Assembly: GCF_000423025.1 (NCBI RefSeq)
Contig: NZ_AUHE01000001.1
Span: 310,001-374,000 of the forward strand
Length of the DNA stretch: 64,000 nt
Source of the DNA: Gordonia shandongensis DSM 45094
GTDB taxonomy: Bacteria; Actinomycetota; Actinomycetes; Mycobacteriales; Mycobacteriaceae
Reading direction: 5' to 3'
Shown: positions 3,356 through 47,130 of the stretch, one piece after another
How the letters are laid out: the number at the start of each line of letters is the position of its first letter
Position numbering within the stretch: the first letter of the stretch is position 1
Made by a program: the position numbers and the translations under genes
The notes under the pieces: generated by a model
Databases searched by the model: none
Told to the model about the DNA's origin: nothing
Seen by the model: only the letters and a program-made list of their open reading frames with translations

Positions 3356-4603
3356 TCACTTGCCGCCTTGCAGATTCGGCAGGAGGTCCTCCAGCGTCGG
3401 GTTGCTCGGGTTGCTCTGCTTCCGCTGAGTGCCCCGCGTCAGCGGATCCTTGAACGGATCGCCGCCGTGCTTGGATCCGCCCGCGGCCTTGCCGACGACC
3501 TTCTCCGGCCCCTTCATGCCGACCGACACGCCCATCGTCTTCGCCAGACGACCCGCCGTGAGGTCGAGCACCAGATCGGAGTTCACGTAGTCGCCCTTCA
3601 CGACCGTCGGAATCAGCTCCTCGATGAACGGGAACGTCAACAGGATCCGCAGCGAGTTGCTCAGCGCCGGACCCGTCATCGACAGCTGCTCCATCAGCTT
3701 GCGCATGTTGGGCATGATGGTCTCGATGTCGGCACGGTTCGCGTCGAGGATGTCGTTGGCCGTCGACGACAGTTCGCCGACGCTCTTCATCGCTCGGGTG
3801 AGGTTGTCACGCTGGTCGACCAGCAGCTGCAGGATCTCCGGCCCCGCCTTAAGCGCCCGCTCGATGGTGGGCGTCTGTGCGTTCATCGTCGCCGACAGCC
3901 GATCGAGACCCTCGGTGGCCGCGATGATGTGGTCGGTCTGCGAGCTGAGGTCGGCGACGAGGGTGTTGAGTCGCGGGACGAGCTTCTTGAGCGTGTCCCC
4001 GTTGCCGCCGAACACCTCGCTCAGCTCGTGGGTCACATCGCCGACCTGCGAGATGCCGCCGCCGTTGAGCACCACCGACAGCGAGCTGAGGACCTGCTCG
4101 GTGGTCGGGTACATGCACGCGTCCACCTGTTGGGCCGCGTTGACGTCCGCGATCCGCTTGCCCTTCGGCTGCGCGATGTTCTCCTGTTCCGGGCACTCCG
4201 GGGCGGCCAGCCGCCCTCCGTCGCCCAGCAGTCCGCCGGCCGGATGCTCGGGCGGGACGATCGCGATGTGCGACGACCCCAGAACGCTGGTCATGCCGAC
4301 CATCGCGTGGGAGCCCTCGGGGACCTCGGTGGCGGCGTTGAGGCGCATCACGACCTCGGCCTTCCAGTCCTTGATCCGGATGTCGCCGATGCTGCCGACC
4401 GTGGTGTCGTGCATCATCACCGGCGCGTTCCGCACCAGTCCGGCCGCCGACGGGATGACCGCGGTGATCTCGAAGGCGTCCGAGCCGGTGCCCTGCGCGC
4501 CGATGGACGACATCGACGAGATCACGTCACCGCTGCATCCGGCGACCGGGATCACCAGGAGGGTCGCGACACCGAGGGTCGCGACGACACGCTTGAACCT
4601 CAC
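3356..4603 (-). CDS. mce4E: MCE4 family lipoprotein Mce4E
   Basis: The N-terminal signal peptide ends in a lipobox (VIPVAGC, Cys about residue 23), the hallmark of the E subunit, which is a lipoprotein in all complete mce operons. The Mce domain follows (RNAPVMMHDTTVGSIGDI), then a coiled helical region. The GTG start at 4603 shares its G with the TAG stop of mce4D and has GGAGGTGAGG upstream. It belongs to the sterol import channel; the lipid anchor should hold it to the outer face of the plasma membrane. Confidence 0.94.
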   Translation of the reverse strand: MRFKRVVATLGVATLLVIPVAGCSGDVISSMSSIGAQGTGSDAFEITAVIPSAAGLVRNAPVMMHDTTVGSIGDIRIKDWKAEVVMRLNAATEVPEGSHAMVGMTSVLGSSHIAIVPPEHPAGGLLGDGGRLAAPECPEQENIAQPKGKRIADVNAAQQVDACMYPTTEQVLSSLSVVLNGGGISQVGDVTHELSEVFGGNGDTLKKLVPRLNTLVADLSSQTDHIIAATEGLDRLSATMNAQTPTIERALKAGPEILQLLVDQRDNLTRAMKSVGELSSTANDILDANRADIETIMPNMRKLMEQLSMTGPALSNSLRILLTFPFIEELIPTVVKGDYVNSDLVLDLTAGRLAKTMGVSVGMKGPEKVVGKAAGGSKHGGDPFKDPLTRGTQRKQSNPSNPTLEDLLPNLQGGK

Positions 4604-5877
4604 TAGCCCTCACCTCCGAACGGGACGAGGAGACGCTTGAGGGGATCGCCGACCGCCGCGCGGCTCGCGGCGTCCCGATCGCGGACCCCCTGCTGTGCCC
4701 TGCGCTTCACGTCCTGATTCTGGTAGGTGATCTGACTGGGATCGGCCACCTTGCCGATCACCGGATTCGACATGAACGGCGGGTAGTTCACCGCGATGTC
4801 CTTCATGATCGGCGCCAGCAGGTCGACGCACTCCTCGATGTCCTTCTCGGTGTCGCCGGGACGCTTCGTCGACGCCATCGACCCGCACAGCATGGTGATG
4901 AGGTTGTTGCCCATGCCGAGGCCGAACACGCCGTCGAGCGATCCGGTGAGCGGGTTGTAGATGTTGAAGAAGTTGGCCAGCTGGTTGGGCGCCGAGTGCA
5001 GGAGGCCGCGGAGCTGCTCGTCCTTGCGTTTGAGCGTCGAGGTCATCTGCGCGAGCTTCTCGACGGTGTCGGAGACCGCCGTCGAGTTGGCGTCGAGGAA
5101 CCCCTCGAGTTCGCCGATGGCCTCGTTGAGGTTCGTCATCGCGTCACCGAGATCGTCGGCGCTGCCCGACAGCACGCTGCTGACGCTGGCCATCCGACCG
5201 TTGAACTGCACCAGCTGCTCATGGCTCGTCGAGAGCTGCTCGGTGAGCTTCTGGAGGCTCTTGATGGTCGCGAAGACGTCGTTGCGGTTGTCCGAGAGGG
5301 TGCCCATGACCGCCGACATCTGCTTGATCGACTCGGCCATCGCGCGCCCGTTGCCGTCGAGGTTGTCGTGGGCGACGTCGAGAGCTCGCGCCGCGGTGCC
5401 CTTGTCGGCCCCCATCGGTCCGCCGTCGCCCTTGGGGCCCACGGCGTCCGACAGCTCGTCGAGCTGCTTCTTCACATCGTCCCACTCCATCGGGACGGCG
5501 GTGTTCTCCATCGGGATCGCTCCCCCGTCGGGCAGCTTGTCGCCCTCGGAGTACACCGGGGTCAACTGGATGAACCGGCCCGAGACCAGCGACTGCGCCA
5601 CGATCACTGCGCGCGCATCCTCCGGGATGTCGACGCCCGAGTCGATGCGCATCGACACCTTGACGTCCGAGCGGCGGGTGTCGATGGACTCCACTTTGCC
5701 GACGCGGACCCCGATCACCCGGACGGCGTCGCCCGGGTAGAGGCCGGTGACCGACTTGAAGTAGGCGACCACCGTGTTGGTGGTGGCCTTCTGGACGATG
5801 AAGAATCCGCCCACCACGAGGAGGCAGACCACGACGACGCCGGCGACGGCGGCGACGATGCCACGTGAGATCCGCAT
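4603..5877 (-). CDS. mce4D: MCE4 family protein Mce4D
   Basis: An N-terminal membrane helix (about residues 7-28) precedes the Mce domain (YPGDAVRVIGVRVGKVESID) and an extended helical domain typical of the family. 424 residues, a normal length for a D subunit. It lies one base after the mce4C stop and overlaps mce4E by one base, so the operon is translated with tight coupling. Predicted subunit of the sterol-conducting Mce hexamer. No anomalies seen. Confidence 0.94.
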   Translation of the reverse strand: MRISRGIVAAVAGVVVVCLLVVGGFFIVQKATTNTVVAYFKSVTGLYPGDAVRVIGVRVGKVESIDTRRSDVKVSMRIDSGVDIPEDARAVIVAQSLVSGRFIQLTPVYSEGDKLPDGGAIPMENTAVPMEWDDVKKQLDELSDAVGPKGDGGPMGADKGTAARALDVAHDNLDGNGRAMAESIKQMSAVMGTLSDNRNDVFATIKSLQKLTEQLSTSHEQLVQFNGRMASVSSVLSGSADDLGDAMTNLNEAIGELEGFLDANSTAVSDTVEKLAQMTSTLKRKDEQLRGLLHSAPNQLANFFNIYNPLTGSLDGVFGLGMGNNLITMLCGSMASTKRPGDTEKDIEECVDLLAPIMKDIAVNYPPFMSNPVIGKVADPSQITYQNQDVKRRAQQGVRDRDAASRAAVGDPLKRLLVPFGGEG

Positions 5878-42076: not shown

Positions 42077-42574
42077 TCAGTCCCTATTCTGTGCGGTGGC
42101 GCTGTTCTGTGCGGTGGCGCTGTTCTGTGCGGTGACGCTGTTCTGTGCGGCGGCATATGCCTCCGGACCGGCCTCGGCTGCGGCCGGGTCCATCCACATG
42201 ATCTCCCAGCCGTGCCCGTCGAGATCGTAGAACGAGGTGCCGTACATGAAACCGTGGTCTTCGGTGCTGCCGACGGTGGCGCCTGCGGCGACCGCCCGGC
42301 CGACGAGTTCGTCGACGACCTCGCGGCTGTCGACGTCCAGGCAGAGGATCGCGCCGCTGGTGGAGACGGCGTCGATGACCGCGTGGCCGGGCACGAAGGT
42401 CTGGTAGTAGTCGCGCTGCAACAGCATGGCGACCATCGAGTCGCCGAGGATCAGTGCGGCGGCCTTCTCGTCGCTGCAGAAGCGGTCGTCGAACCGGTAT
42501 CCCATCGCGGTGAAGAACGTCCTCGACGCGTCGACGTCGGCGACCGGAAGGTTCACGAAGATCGTGGAGTGCAT
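42077..42574 (-). CDS. VOC (glyoxalase/bleomycin-resistance) family protein
   Basis: 165 residues of the vicinal-oxygen-chelate fold: STIFVNLPVADVDASRTFFT, SGAILCLDVDSREVVDELVG, GFMYGTSFYDLDGHGWEIMW with the C-terminal metal-site Glu. Often found near ECF sigma factors of this group. The C-terminus carries AQNSAT repeats from an 18-bp DNA array which adjoin the sigma-factor start. ATG at 42574; an ATG at 42586 is possible. Substrate unknown. Confidence 0.85.
   Translation of the reverse strand: MHSTIFVNLPVADVDASRTFFTAMGYRFDDRFCSDEKAAALILGDSMVAMLLQRDYYQTFVPGHAVIDAVSTSGAILCLDVDSREVVDELVGRAVAAGATVGSTEDHGFMYGTSFYDLDGHGWEIMWMDPAAAEAGPEAYAAAQNSVTAQNSATAQNSATAQNRD
42087..42158. repeat. 18-bp tandem repeat (about 4 copies) in the VOC gene 3' end
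   Basis: TTCTGTGCGGTGGCGCTG at 42087, 42105 and 42123 (one change), with a partial unit at 42141. In frame, it encodes AQNSAT repeats directly before the stop. Confidence 0.92.
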
Positions 42575-42724: not shown

Positions 42725-43042
42725 ATGGCTGACATCGAGATCCACATGGACGGTTCCCTCGCTCGCGCCGCCCGGCACCTCATCCAGGTGTCGGCGCGGA
42801 CCATCGCCCGGTACTCGGGCATCGACACCGAGACGCTTCGGCGCTACGAGAAGGGCGGTGACGCGCTCACCGTCGCAGAGATCGAGCGGGTCACCGAGGC
42901 GCTCGTGCACTACGGTGCCCGTTTCGTCCCCGAAGACGAGACCGGCGGCTGCGGTGTACGCCGCAAGTTCTCGCGGACCACGGTCGCGCGCATCGAGAAC
43001 TGGGAGAGCGAAGGCGGCCCCGTCGCCGACGACGACGTCTAG
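42725..43042 (+). CDS. XRE-family helix-turn-helix regulator
   Basis: 105 residues. A helix-turn-helix in the middle (VSARTIARYSGIDTETLRRY, then AEIERVTEALVHYGARF) and a short C-terminal strand region ending EGGPVADDD. Small stand-alone XRE proteins of this build are common in actinobacterial accessory regions. The end of the gene abuts the IS481-type terminus at 43044, but the C-terminus looks natural, so I do not think it is truncated. Confidence 0.75.
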   Translation: MADIEIHMDGSLARAARHLIQVSARTIARYSGIDTETLRRYEKGGDALTVAEIERVTEALVHYGARFVPEDETGGCGVRRKFSRTTVARIENWESEGGPVADDDV

Positions 43043-43780
43043 CTGTACTGACCGGACACGTTGATCAATCGTGAGAAGGGCGGCCGGCCTCCGCAGGCGG
43101 TGTGGGGTCGGTGGTGGTTGTAGTAGTGCAGCCAGCCAGTGAGTTCACCGCGACGCTCGCTTTCGGACTTGTAGCAGCGAGCGTAGGACCAGCCATCGGC
43201 CATGGTCCGGTGGAAGCGTTCAACTTTCCCGTTGGTCTGTGGCCGATACGGACAGGTTCGTTTGTGCGTAATGCCGCGCTCAGCGCAGGTGTCTCGCCAT
43301 AGGTGCGACCGGTAGGCACCCCCGTTGTCCGAGAGCACCCGTTCAACAATGACTCCCCGCTGGCCGAACCATTCCACTGCTCGGGACAGAACCGCCGTTG
43401 CGGTGATCGCGGTGTCGTCGTCATGGATCTCAGCGTGTGCAACGCGGGAATAGTCGTCGATGACAGTGTGGACGTAGGCCTTTCCCATGAGTGGGTTGGC
43501 GTACTTGTTCCGGGGTTTGTCCGGAGTGGAGCTTCGATTTCTCTCTCCTTGCTGCCGGCCGACGTAGCGCCAGCCTCCGCCGTCTGGGATGTTGCCAAGC
43601 TTCGTCACATCCACATGAATCCTTGAGCCGGGGTGGTCGTGCTCGTATCGACGGATCGGTTCTCCGCCACGAGACCTGGAATCGGGCTGCGACTTCACTG
43701 ATCGGCCAGCCGTCGTCAACGACGAGGCGGGCCACTTTCAGTCGGTGGCGCGGTGTGAGAGCAGCGTTTGGATGTGTCAT
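43039..43780 (-). pseudogene. IS481-family transposase, internally deleted and frameshifted
   Basis: The start (MTHPNAALTPRHRLKVARLV...EVAARFQVSW) is the N-terminal helix-turn-helix of IS481 transposases. About 40 residues in, the frame jumps to GGEPIRRYEHDHPGSRIHVD and continues as a complete-looking DDE core (HVDVTKLGNIPD, VLSDNGGAYRSHLWRD, RPYRPQTNGK-type CPYRPQTNGKVERFHR). Compared with intact relatives, roughly a hundred residues between the first helix-turn-helix and the core are missing and the frame shifts at the junction near 43667, so the protein is dead. Its stop codon lies outside the element end, in flanking DNA. Confidence 0.88.
43044..43070. mobile_element. IS481-type element end (transposase side)
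   Basis: TGTACTGACCGGACACGTTG begins with TGT, as IS481-family ends do, directly beyond the XRE gene stop. A related inverted copy lies at 45355-45376. Confidence 0.65.
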
Positions 43781-43799
43781 GAGTTCCCTTCGAGACGGA

Positions 43800-43830
43800 G
43801 AAGGGGCCAGCCGGATCGGCTGGCCCCTTC
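43800..43830 (-). terminator. Terminator downstream of the alpha/beta hydrolase gene
   Basis: GAAGGGGCCAGCCG and its exact inverse with a three-base loop (GAT), 16 bases after the hydrolase stop on the minus strand and 20 bases before the transposase start. Confidence 0.8.
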
Positions 43831-43846
43831 AGGTTGTGGGTGCAGT

Positions 43847-44575
43847 TCAGCTGGTTTGCGACGCTGCGCGAATGATCTCGGCGAGCTCACGCGGCCGGCT
43901 CCACATGGGCCAGTGCCCTGTAGGGAGGTCTACGACATCGACGCGTTCGAGGTTTGCGACCTCCGCGAACATGGGGTGGCCCGCCTTGGCCAGTTTCATC
44001 ACCTGCTCGCCCGAGATCGAGCAGCACACCAGGGTCGTCAGGACGCTGTTGCGGGCCTCGTTCGTGAGTTCGACGGACTGGCGAAGCACCAGAGCGGGCT
44101 CAGGGACTGCCTTCGTTCGGAAGCGCTCGAGTGTTTCGGTGCTCAGCCCTTCGAGGCTAGCCTTCTGCCCAAGGTCATCGAACGACGGCAGGGGCAAGTC
44201 TTCAAGCTCGGCCCGGAACTCGGATGCGAACGCAGCGCCATCGGCCACGGGACCGGAATCGACCCACACCACCCGGGCGACCAGCTCGGGGTGCCGGTCG
44301 AGAACGAGACTGACGGGGCCGTTGGCACCGCTGTGCGCGACGAGGATCACGGGCTGATCGCCCTGCTCGGCGATCGCGTCCCTGATCGCTGCCGCCTGGT
44401 CGTCGACCGTCTTTGCCGCGCGCTCCGCGTCGTCCGCGTCGAGACCCGGCAGCGTCATCGCGACTGCGTGCGTGTCATCGGTTGCGAGGTGCTCAACGAC
44501 GTCGTCCCAGGCCCATGCTCCCAGCCAATGGCCTGGGATAAGGACGATAGGTCGACTGTTATTTGTTGTTGTCAT
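43847..44575 (-). CDS. Alpha/beta hydrolase
   Basis: 242 residues: PIVLIPGHWLGAWAWDDVVE (oxyanion region), VILVAHSGANGPVSLV with the nucleophile elbow HSGAN around residue 102, and a C-terminal GHWPMWSRPRELAEII with the catalytic His. Substrate unknown. Divergent from the WYL regulator across a 73-base AT-richer spacer, the usual layout of a regulator and its single target. Together the pair lies within the IS481-bounded segment and is visibly less GC-rich than its neighbours, suggesting later acquisition. Confidence 0.85.
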   Translation of the reverse strand: MTTTNNSRPIVLIPGHWLGAWAWDDVVEHLATDDTHAVAMTLPGLDADDAERAAKTVDDQAAAIRDAIAEQGDQPVILVAHSGANGPVSLVLDRHPELVARVVWVDSGPVADGAAFASEFRAELEDLPLPSFDDLGQKASLEGLSTETLERFRTKAVPEPALVLRQSVELTNEARNSVLTTLVCCSISGEQVMKLAKAGHPMFAEVANLERVDVVDLPTGHWPMWSRPRELAEIIRAASQTS

Positions 44576-44648
44576 GGGACAAGCCTCCCAGCCCTGTTGG
44601 ACAAGAGTGTGTCACCATTTATGTCATGAATTTATCGAGGTTTGAGCG

Positions 44649-45347
44649 GTGAAGCGAGCCGAGCGACTACACGCACTGTCCGAGATGCTGCGTCGCAGTG
44701 GGGCACGGGGCGTCTCGGCCGAGCGGTTGGCGCGAGAGTTCGAAGTGTCGGTCCGCACTGTCAAGCGTGACCTCGACGCGTTGGAGAACAGCGGCGCGCC
44801 GATCTGGTCCCGCCCTGGCCCAGGCGGGGGATACGGGCTAGCCAAGGGTGCGACCCTTCCGCCCGTCACCCTGTCCCCGGCGCAGGCCGTGGCGCTCATG
44901 GTGGCGGTCTCCGCCGCGTCAGATGCGCCCTATGCAGATCTGGCAGGGGCCGGGGTCCGGAAGATCATGGACGTCCTCGACCCCAAGACCCGAGCGCAGG
45001 CCGACGAGCTTGCCCACCGGATCTGGGTCAATTCGCTTCCCTCTTCCTCACGCTCCATCCGGTCAGCCATAGAGGAGGCGATGGCAGAGCAAAGAGTGCT
45101 CCGCATTCGCTATACGTCGCGGGAGGGCACCACGACTGCTCGTGACGTCGAACCTGTGCTGTTCGCTTCCACGAGCGGCCGGTGGTATCTAGTCGGATGG
45201 TGCCTCCTGCGCGATGCGATGCGTTGGTTCGCCGTGTCGCGCATCGAGCACGCCGCCGTCACCATGACGGCCTGCAGCGGCCACACCATCCAGGAGGTCG
45301 GGGAGCCCCCGGCGAACGCCAGGCCCATTCATGGCCACGACGAGTGA
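44649..45347 (+). CDS. YafY-type HTH-WYL regulator
   Basis: 232 residues. N-terminal HTH_11 domain (RLHALSEMLRRSGARGVSAE...TVKRDLDALE) and C-terminal WYL domain (RIRYTSREGTTTARDVEPVL, WYLVGWCLLRDAMRWFAVSR). WYL domains bind small ligands. GTG start at 44649. Divergent from the alpha/beta hydrolase, which it probably controls. Confidence 0.88.
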   Translation: MKRAERLHALSEMLRRSGARGVSAERLAREFEVSVRTVKRDLDALENSGAPIWSRPGPGGGYGLAKGATLPPVTLSPAQAVALMVAVSAASDAPYADLAGAGVRKIMDVLDPKTRAQADELAHRIWVNSLPSSSRSIRSAIEEAMAEQRVLRIRYTSREGTTTARDVEPVLFASTSGRWYLVGWCLLRDAMRWFAVSRIEHAAVTMTACSGHTIQEVGEPPANARPIHGHDE

Positions 45348-45354
45348 CTGCCTC

Positions 45355-45376
45355 GATCAATCTCTACGGTCAGTAC
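45355..45376. mobile_element. Inverted copy of the IS481-type end beyond the WYL gene
   Basis: Read on the minus strand: GTACTGACCGTAGAGATTGA, sharing GTACTGACCG and the following TTGATC with the end at 43044. It may bound a roughly 2.3-kb segment with the hydrolase and WYL genes as passengers, or be an isolated remnant. No clear target duplication is visible. Confidence 0.5.
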
Positions 45377-45432
45377 TTCAGCAACCTCTGCCGCACGGGT
45401 GCGGACATGCCGGTGCCCCGGCCTCCTCGTGG

Positions 45433-46968
45433 TTACGAGGCGGTCGGGAACCGGACGTCCGTCCCGTCGATCGGTGGACCGTGGTGTGCCGCGAGGTCGG
45501 CGAGCAGTCGGTACTCGGCATCGGAGACCACGGGCGACGGCGGGTGGGCATCGGGTGGTCGTCGTCGGATCGGGAGATCCGCGTAATGAATCGGATTGGT
45601 GCGTACGGGTCCGTCACGGTCGGCGACCCGCCATCCGACGCGACCGGCCTCGGGCCCGGCTTCGGGACCGAGGACCTCGGTGTCCCACCGCGCCGGACCG
45701 GCGCTGGCCGCACGGTTGTGTCCGCCGCACGCCGCGCCGAGATTGTCGATGTCGGTGGGCCCACCGTGCTGCCAGTCGGGCATGTGGTGTGCCTGCGTCA
45801 TGGAGAACGGTCGATCGCAGCCCGGGGCGGTGCAGCCGCGATCGCGGCCGAACAGAGCCAATCGCTGGGCCCTGCTCGCCAGCCGCCGGCCGCGACCGAA
45901 GTAGAGGATCTGTCGTGAACCCGCGGCGAAGACTTCGAGGTACGGGACGGCGTCGGCCGCGAGGTCGACCAGATCCGCCACCGGAACGCGGGTCCCGGTG
46001 GCCGTGAGCGCGATGCCACAGCCGGCCGCGAGATCGGCGAGATCAGCGGTGATGACCAGCTGGGACGACAGTGAATCCGAGGGGCCCAGCCCGCCGTGCG
46101 CCAAGACGAAGTCGGCGAAGGCCTCGAGTGCATCGTGATTGCGCTGGGCGGGCGAGCGAAGATCTCGATCCGCGGCGGCCTGCAGAACCGCGGGGTCCAG
46201 ACCGGGGGCGTCGGCGGCACCGCGGGGCGAATCGGGATCGTCGGGATTGTTGACGCCGGGCGCCGCCCACGCGGTGAGGATCACGTCGAGTTTGGCGCGC
46301 AGCTGCGGCGTGAGCTCACCGGCGAGCCGCGACATCAGCCGGACGTCCTGCTGTCCCAGCGTGACACTGCGGTTACGGCGCCGATCGCGGTCGTCGGTCT
46401 CCTGCCCGTCGGGGTCGAGGTGGGCGAGCAGGCGAATGCCGACCTTGGTGAGCTGGTCCGGCGACAGCGTGCGTGCCGCCGCGGCCAGGTCGGCCTCGGC
46501 GGCGGCGATCACGTCGCCGGGAACGCGGTCGGGAATCCGGCGCATCACATCGGTGATCACGAGGACGTGTGCGGCGGAGACCTCACCGTCTGCCACGGCA
46601 TCGGCCGCGGTCGGCAGGACGGGATCGAGCAGTTCCCCCTGGAGGTTGGTGAGGCGACCGATCTGCGAGGCCGCCACGGTGCGCCGCTTGACCTCGCCGG
46701 GAGACAGGCGCAACCCGAAGCCGAGGAACTGGGACCGACGGATCCAACCAGCCTTACGGTAGGCGGCCCGGTCGGAGACCGCGGTGATGATCGACGCGTC
46801 GGCGGCCTCGGCTTTGCGGCGTGCGCATTCGACGGTCTCGGCCACCGTGACGAGATCGTCCTCGGTGAGCGAGTCGAGGTTCGCGTCGCGGAGCGCGTCG
46901 GTCACCTGCACCAGGAGGCGAGCGAGGTCGAGCGCATCGTCGGGAAGCGTGGCCGGTTCGGTCGACAT
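45433..46968 (-). CDS. DUF222 / HNH endonuclease-domain protein (13E12-type)
   Basis: Long DUF222 helical domain (LTEDDLVTVAETVECARRKA onwards) then a C-terminal HNH motif: CTAPGCDRPFSMTQAHHMPD, followed by GGPTDIDNLGAACGGHN. This is the 13E12 repeat family, abundant in mycobacteria and Gordonia; its function is unsettled but the HNH residues look intact. I favour the ATG at 46968 (AGGGGGTG upstream) over 47013. The 3' end lies about 55 bases from the IS481-like end at 45355. Confidence 0.87.
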   Translation of the reverse strand: MSTEPATLPDDALDLARLLVQVTDALRDANLDSLTEDDLVTVAETVECARRKAEAADASIITAVSDRAAYRKAGWIRRSQFLGFGLRLSPGEVKRRTVAASQIGRLTNLQGELLDPVLPTAADAVADGEVSAAHVLVITDVMRRIPDRVPGDVIAAAEADLAAAARTLSPDQLTKVGIRLLAHLDPDGQETDDRDRRRNRSVTLGQQDVRLMSRLAGELTPQLRAKLDVILTAWAAPGVNNPDDPDSPRGAADAPGLDPAVLQAAADRDLRSPAQRNHDALEAFADFVLAHGGLGPSDSLSSQLVITADLADLAAGCGIALTATGTRVPVADLVDLAADAVPYLEVFAAGSRQILYFGRGRRLASRAQRLALFGRDRGCTAPGCDRPFSMTQAHHMPDWQHGGPTDIDNLGAACGGHNRAASAGPARWDTEVLGPEAGPEAGRVGWRVADRDGPVRTNPIHYADLPIRRRPPDAHPPSPVVSDAEYRLLADLAAHHGPPIDGTDVRFPTAS

Positions 46969-47130
46969 CGGAAACACCCCCTGAAACCGTTCGTCCATCA
47001 GACGCTCATACATTCGATGTATCTGTGAGTTATATTACTCTGAATTTCTCACGGCGTCCAGAGGGAATCGTTCATGCGTTCGATGTCGACAGGCGGGTCG
47101 AGACGCGGTGATGGGCCGGCCTCCCGAAGA

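Follow-up and report, generated by a model that had tools for sequence, protein, structure and literature searches.

A decayed IS481-type passenger transposon with a hydrolase and WYL regulator cargo in Gordonia shandongensis DSM 45094

Insertion sequences (IS) of the IS481 family that carry passenger genes are already in print. The parts of the literature at hand describe ISArsp12, ISPfr21 and TnRErm46, and the unit reported here is a further, dead one. It lies at positions 43044-45377 (2,334 bp) of a 64,000-nucleotide stretch of Gordonia shandongensis DSM 45094 (contig NZ_AUHE01000001.1, positions 310,001 to 374,000), which we call the window. Its passengers are an alpha/beta hydrolase gene and a WYL regulator gene. 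L and G numbers are our own handles for loci and genomes.

ISArsp12 is described as an IS481 family element of 2,615 bp on the Arthrobacter plasmid pA2H1, with two passenger genes, the inverted repeat TGTACTGACCGGACACGTTG and the target repeat CCTAGA (PMC6305408). It is locus L034 of our survey. Like the window unit, it combines an IS481 transposase with two passenger genes. However, a permease and an ArsR regulator form its cargo and its transposase is intact, whereas the window unit carries a hydrolase and a WYL regulator and its transposase has a deletion. ISPfr21 of Propionibacterium freudenreichii is described with a transposase and two further genes, one of them a TetR regulator (PMC2909200), and is reported to be 86% identical to ISArsp12 (PMC6305408). 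Compared by gene content, its layout is like that of the window unit but its cargo is different. TnRErm46 (ISRe46) of Rhodococcus equi is reported as an active, multi-copy element of 6.9 kb with several cargo genes, drug resistance included, and according to its authors cargo, for instance resistance genes and regulators, can be present in members of the IS481 family (PMC6794481). As described there, it is like the window unit in having cargo and a CTAG that supplies the TAG stops of both transposase and target gene; its target repeats are NCTAGN, the type of the left repeat of the window unit. In contrast to the window unit, it has a different end sequence and is larger, active and multi-copy.

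Ends, target site and transposase of the unit

A first-pass annotation of the window had proposed a dead IS481 transposase whose end motif recurs, inverted, beyond two passenger genes, the whole forming a 2.3-kb mobilised unit. We consider it very probable that the unit is a dead IS481-family passenger transposon, with the transposase at one end and a divergent hydrolase/WYL operon at the other. Sequence comparison supports this by the ends, by relatives that carry the same cargo with a full-length transposase, by the occurrence of such units at unrelated NCTAGN targets with 6-bp repeats and by the internal deletion of the transposase. The features of the unit are as follows.

43038-43043, no strand: left target repeat TCTAGC, of the NCTAGN type seen in relatives
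43042-43663, minus strand: C-terminal part of the IS481 transposase, which retains the catalytic core (profile match and alignment)
43044-43066, plus strand: left terminal inverted repeat, transposase end, TGTACTGACCGGACACGTTGATC, the same end as in relatives
43664-43780, minus strand: N-terminal remnant of the transposase (helix-turn-helix, HTH, start), separated from the core by a frame change and a 245-bp deletion
43800-43830, no strand: terminator-like hairpin with a 14-bp stem between cargo and transposase (putative role)
43847-44575, minus strand: alpha/beta hydrolase, 242 aa, intact (PF12697)
44610-44626, no strand: operator-like TGTCA-n7-TGTCA in the divergent promoter gap (putative role)
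44649-45347, plus strand: HTH-WYL transcriptional regulator, 232 aa, intact (PF13280, PF08279)
45355-45377, minus strand: right terminal inverted repeat at the cargo end; its last base is T instead of the A of relatives (motif scan and relatives)
45378-45382, no strand: right flank TCAGC, equal to TCTAGC minus one T, suggestive of a decayed target repeat

The motif GTACTGACCG-n6-TTGATC had exactly two zero-mismatch matches in the 64-kb window, at 43045-43066 (+) and 45355-45376 (-), both ends being mismatch-free over the 16 fixed bases. With up to 3 mismatches there were 5 matches against 0.53 expected, and none of 100 shuffles reached 5. A chance likeness of the two ends was rejected on this count. 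The ends were also detected unprompted, as a 22-nt inverted repeat, 82% complementary, with 2288 nt between its arms. The first-pass annotation was right about both ends, with a small correction to their limits: the outermost base is T 43044 on the left and 45377 on the right. The left end TGTACTGACCG starts with 5'-TGT, and the right end AGTACTGACCG has its outer base changed. In most intact relatives, TGT begins both ends.

The left target repeat contains a CTAG that provides two TAG stop codons, one for the HTH gene upstream (43040-43042, plus strand) and one for the transposase remnant (43039-43041, minus strand). A DNA search of the 3.33-Mb genome found no second copy of the unit, only the unit itself. 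The other matches were a 199-bp stretch 70% identical to the transposase, which may be a more distant IS, and the reverse complement of the hairpin.

The transposase has indeed lost its middle, as had been read from a frame jump near 43667. Alignment with two full-length relatives places an internal deletion of 245 bp and a frame change at a junction near 43663. The N-terminal part is in a different frame from the C-terminal part; the catalytic core is still open, and the stretch after the N-terminal HTH start is gone. The C-terminal part covers positions 114-284 of 284 in the NCBIfam profile for IS481-type DDE transposases (NF033577, E 9.7e-66). Its score of 222.2 bits is 1.8 below the whole-protein cut-off of 224 because much of the N-terminal part is deleted. 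Identity to the Dietzia row of the alignment is 74%. Judged by the deletion and the frame change, the remnant does not encode a functional transposase and the element is dead.

No second end was found near the transposase start (43780-43850) at up to 3 mismatches, in agreement with the first reading; the terminator-like hairpin lies there instead. Among the 44 cargo units surveyed below, 24 have a stem of at least 12 bp within 90 nt before the transposase, compared with 2 of 220 shuffles.

The unit was also said to be less GC-rich than its surroundings. This holds for the unit as a whole, which has 64.0% GC where stretches of equal length average 69.0% (z -2.75), but the low value comes mainly from the transposase (61.3%). 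The hydrolase (65.3%, z -1.4) and the WYL gene (67.4%, z -0.6) are not clearly odd. Composition is therefore a weak argument, and we rejected it as proof of foreign origin since the transposase alone stands out.

The history of the unit may have run as follows. The transposase would have bound the two ends and inserted the unit as a whole at the CTAG that forms the stop of the HTH gene, which would have been left unharmed. The loss of 245 bp would have come afterwards. The cargo may have been retained because it was useful to the host, and the WYL protein may bind the shared promoter gap and control the hydrolase in response to a small molecule.

Relatives with the same hydrolase-WYL cargo

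Both passenger genes were correctly named at first reading, and both reading frames are intact. In a PDB search the hydrolase had weak relatives only, the best being the esterase 7wwf (E 1.5e-8). The ratio of nonsynonymous to synonymous substitution rates (dN/dS) was calculated against the window copy for 10 relatives, with L213-L216 left out. It was 0.11-0.22 for the WYL gene (10 relatives) and 0.19-0.29 for the hydrolase (the 9 where it was computable); these values are rough since dS often exceeds 1. They indicate purifying selection on the cargo, in the window and in several relatives whose transposase is broken or gone. The TGTCA-n7-TGTCA site is kept, with variation, in the 15 loci aligned, and is a candidate operator.

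Intact relatives with the same cargo, which the first-pass annotation had proposed to look for, were found. L095 (Kocuria subflava) and L097 (Brachybacterium equifaecis) have the same two cargo clusters, a full-length transposase, both ends and perfect 6-bp target repeats, GCTAGT and TCTAGC respectively. They are 95.5% identical to each other. Each is 66% identical to the window unit and colinear with it end to end, and the cargo measures 1600 and 1601 nt against 1597 nt in the window.

The WYL protein was searched in 298 genomes from the order and 394 from the class. Matches came from 29 genomes of the order, with 10 regions compared, and from 8 of the class, with 5 regions compared, in each case besides the window and G048. 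The closest relative found was L213, from another family, whose DNA is 83% identical to the unit from position 679 to 2334 and for 5 further bases. No other similarity was found within 10 kb of window flank on each side, except one 31-bp match inside the unit. The L213 copy, in which no transposase match remains, lies at the TAG stop of a murB gene. At their unrelated sites, the window unit and L213 have the same pair of flanks, TCTAGC to the left and TCAGC, which lacks one T, to the right (5981-5985 in L213).

L206 comes from the same family but a different genus. This unit of 1,883 bp has both ends, exact GCTAGG repeats and the same cargo. Its transposase is mostly deleted and its locus differs from that of the window. 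The right flank of the window bears a short resemblance to the L206 flank, CAGCAACC, which we set aside because the loci are otherwise unrelated.

In L095, L097 and L206 the cargo lies between the transposase and the distal end and, to judge by the exact repeats, has moved with the ends. Together with the L213 copy at its unrelated site, the L095 and L097 units bear out the proposal of a 2.3-kb unit mobilised whole with its regulator and hydrolase.

We tabulated 15 loci with a WYL identity of at least 66%, the window included. Matches below 65% identity were not counted, and the table omits L209-L211 (WYL about 50%) as well as L217 (shortened pair). A recognisable end stands beside the WYL gene in 9 of the 15 (score 16-22 of 22, local background about 11.5), which agrees with the shuffles in setting the 45355 motif apart from chance similarity. 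Such transposon-type ends adjoin the WYL gene in L206, L202, L203, L213, L214 and L215. A full-length transposase is found in only 2 of the 15. The aligned cargo frames are free of stops, except the hydrolase of L083 in Gordonia genome G048 (about 4490-5134). That copy has no recognisable ends and one in-frame stop in the hydrolase; its WYL gene is open.

The four cassettes L202-L205 come from four species of one genus and are 89-93% identical. Outside the cassette (10.5-10.7 kb), the six pairs share only one 53-bp match, so the insertion sites differ. No transposase match was found in them by tblastn, although in L203 the similarity at the DNA level reaches into the beginning of the transposase. 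This pattern could stem either from movement by a helper transposase or from repeated transposase loss. Read by eye, L204 has end-like remnants at about 4172-4200 and 5720-5745, with GCTGGC on both sides of the transposase-less cassette.

Cassettes of this kind raise the question of whether the window unit itself is still mobile, as a mobile insertion cassette moved by a related full-length transposase acting from elsewhere. Its left end is intact, and the Gordonia unit L089 (G030) has kept both ends with a transposase remnant of only 36 residues. On the other side, the right terminal base is changed, the genome holds a single copy, and the sole other DNA match to the transposase is the 199-bp stretch at 70%. 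We regard present mobility as improbable.

At the chromosomal locus, the upstream HTH gene has homologs, and the stretch past this gene differs in the relatives examined. In ten Gordonia stretches around HTH-gene homologs, the hydrolase, the WYL gene and the transposase were all not found. Six of the ten (G023, G058, G016, G030, G017 and G042) retain more of the window neighbourhood, namely the sigma factor, the glyoxalase-like gene, the HTH gene and the methyltransferase. In these ten stretches, therefore, the pair was not found conserved at the locus without the IS, which the first-pass annotation had named as grounds for dropping its proposal. A strict empty site, for which it had suggested looking, could not be read in them.

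Several observations weigh against the reading as a passenger transposon. The right target repeat of the window is one base short and the adjoining terminal base is changed. No strict empty site was found among 59 Gordonia genomes (own included), and the six better-kept stretches are partly rearranged, with other genes present and a different gene order and neighbours. The hydrolase-WYL pair lacks recognisable ends in 6 of the 15 loci (score 10-13). The WYL protein of the end-less Gordonia copy L083 is closer to the window (72%) than are those of L095 and L097 (66-67%). Part of the cargo history could therefore be chromosomal. In the transposase tree given below, the window and L095/L097 fall in different branches, so the whole element was not simply inherited from one ancestor.

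The end-less pairs, L083 among them, and the missing empty site would fit a plain IS481 element that landed beside a resident hydrolase-WYL pair, with the 45355 end a leftover of another copy or a chance likeness. However, L095, L097 and L206 have the same order, orientation and spacing between ends with perfect repeats, the cargo length agrees within a few nucleotides between the window and L095/L097, and the match to L213 breaks off 5 bases beyond the right end. We judge a resident pair very improbable and retain the dead passenger transposon.

Two features of the neighbourhood are recorded here. The DUF222-HNH protein to the right of the unit (45433-47013) belongs to a multi-copy family with 5 matches in its own genome and matches in 58 of the 59 Gordonia genomes (own included). 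At 42084-42154, the 3' end of the glyoxalase-like gene has tandem copies of an 18-bp unit that encode a repeated TAQNSA-like tail.

Cargo diversity and apparent cargo exchange in related IS481 elements

We searched for the transposase in one genome per species and took the best 80 of at least 574 confirmed loci, so that the counts describe the closest relatives only. Six annotated plasmid loci brought the total to 86. Both ends with identical 6-bp flanks were found in 52 of the 86 loci, and a second end without identical flanks in 24. The second end was not found in 10, and in 8 of these the contig continues for under 1.7 kb on the side concerned. The repeat is NCTAGN in 51 of the 52 exact cases. 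When all 59 loci with xCTAGx on both flanks were considered, 51 were identical, compared with about 4 expected by chance for the two outer bases.

Cargo was present in 44 of the 52 exact-repeat loci and absent from 8 (plain elements of about 1.1 kb). The plain IS481-type elements L160-L163, L165, L167, L169 and L171 have the same end type as the window unit and NCTAGN repeats, the type of its left repeat. Unlike the window unit, they are about 1.1 kb long and without cargo, and they form one branch of the transposase tree together with L168. In the 44 cargo units, the cargo spans 0.8-4.7 kb and the unit 1.77-5.64 kb. They fall into 20 groups with no common cargo gene cluster (24 by a stricter rule). 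These groups rest on blastp clusters of automatic gene calls, which miss some genes, such as the WYL gene of the RidA units, shown by plasmid annotation.

A Pfam scan covered fifty cargo genes that stood for the larger clusters and for many single ones, out of 75 clusters in all. Of the 44 cargo units, 34 have a recognised regulator. In 31, a DNA-binding regulator was assigned by a Pfam match of the cluster representative (WYL, MerR, AraC, MarR, ArsR, TetR, HxlR, HTH-cupin, PadR, LysR and IclR-like types), and Rrf2 was assigned by annotation. The other 3 are RidA units with an annotated or homologous WYL gene. A MazE/AbrB-like protein occurs in 4 units, and no regulator was recognised by Pfam of cluster representatives in 6. 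Among the partners across all loci are hydrolases, glyoxalase-like proteins, RidA, ArsP permease, zinc dehydrogenases, SRPBCC and SnoaL proteins, EamA, ABC and MFS transporters and DUF2268 proteases. An SDR partner was seen only in units without exact repeats. Other Gordonia genomes carry members of the same group with TetR-SDR, MarR-SRPBCC, AraC-glyoxalase, TfoX and WYL-RidA cargo.

Two side observations belong to the survey. L137 is a contig titled Vibrio cholerae that holds an actinobacterial passenger unit, with a transposase identical to that of an Arthrobacter plasmid; this is probably contamination or mislabelling. In L115, L116, L121 and L127, the last transposase residues and the proximal end are unlike the rest, and an odd sequence directly beyond it is common to L115 and L121.

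Cargo seems to have been exchanged between transposase lineages, since similar transposases carry unrelated cargo and their homology sets in at the transposase start codon. Among the exact-repeat units, 92 pairs (29 units) are at least 85% identical in transposase DNA and have no common cargo cluster. In 87 of the 92, homology begins within 20 nt of the transposase start codon. In the 20 same-cargo pairs, by comparison, homology continues through the cargo, for a median of 1.6 kb further. Part of this sharp boundary is trivially expected because upstream non-coding DNA is free to change, but such divergence leaves the unrelated cargo unexplained. Cargo modules may be swapped at a point immediately ahead of the transposase start codon.

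The transposase tree is a quick one without bootstrap, with L166 and L035 left out and the window row a fragment of 207 residues. On it, 33 cargo labels need 35 changes (minimum 32, shuffled mean 61.6). This near-minimal number means that cargo mostly follows its transposase. TipA-DUF2268 accounts for 4 changes and hydrolase-WYL for 2.

The two changes for hydrolase-WYL could mean that the window transposase gained the pair separately from the Kocuria and Brachybacterium units, although the result would still be one transposon. The window transposase has its highest identity to L126 (85%), in a branch other than that of L095/L097, and copies of the pair without recognisable ends exist. However, exchange of cargo between transposase lineages yields the same pattern, the placement depends on the short window row in an unbootstrapped tree, and transposon-type ends adjoin the WYL gene in the six loci listed above. 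We therefore consider a separate capture unlikely.

A possible cassette vector of Actinobacteria

In the parts of the literature at hand, passenger IS481 elements are reported singly. Among the open-access full texts listed, no paper announced a survey of how diverse the cargo of this group is or of its exchange; the search did not extend to ISfinder or to subscription papers. Here, one branch carries at least 20 unrelated cargo groups in many actinobacterial families. The cargo usually pairs a small enzyme or transporter with a regulator of its own, and there are signs of exchange at a fixed boundary.

We tentatively propose, at somewhat less than even confidence, that this IS481 branch may serve as a cassette vector of Actinobacteria. 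The transposase would be the constant part, and complete regulated operons, each an enzyme or transporter together with its regulator, would be exchanged between the junction at its start codon and the distal end. The units would be put onto CTAG sites, often stop codons, with little harm, and would be left as chromosomal operons after the transposase decays. An annotation that ends at 'IS481 transposase' overlooks the cargo, and a dead unit resembles ordinary genes. If the proposal is true, the branch would bring ready-regulated operons into actinobacterial chromosomes, where they would persist after the death of the vector.

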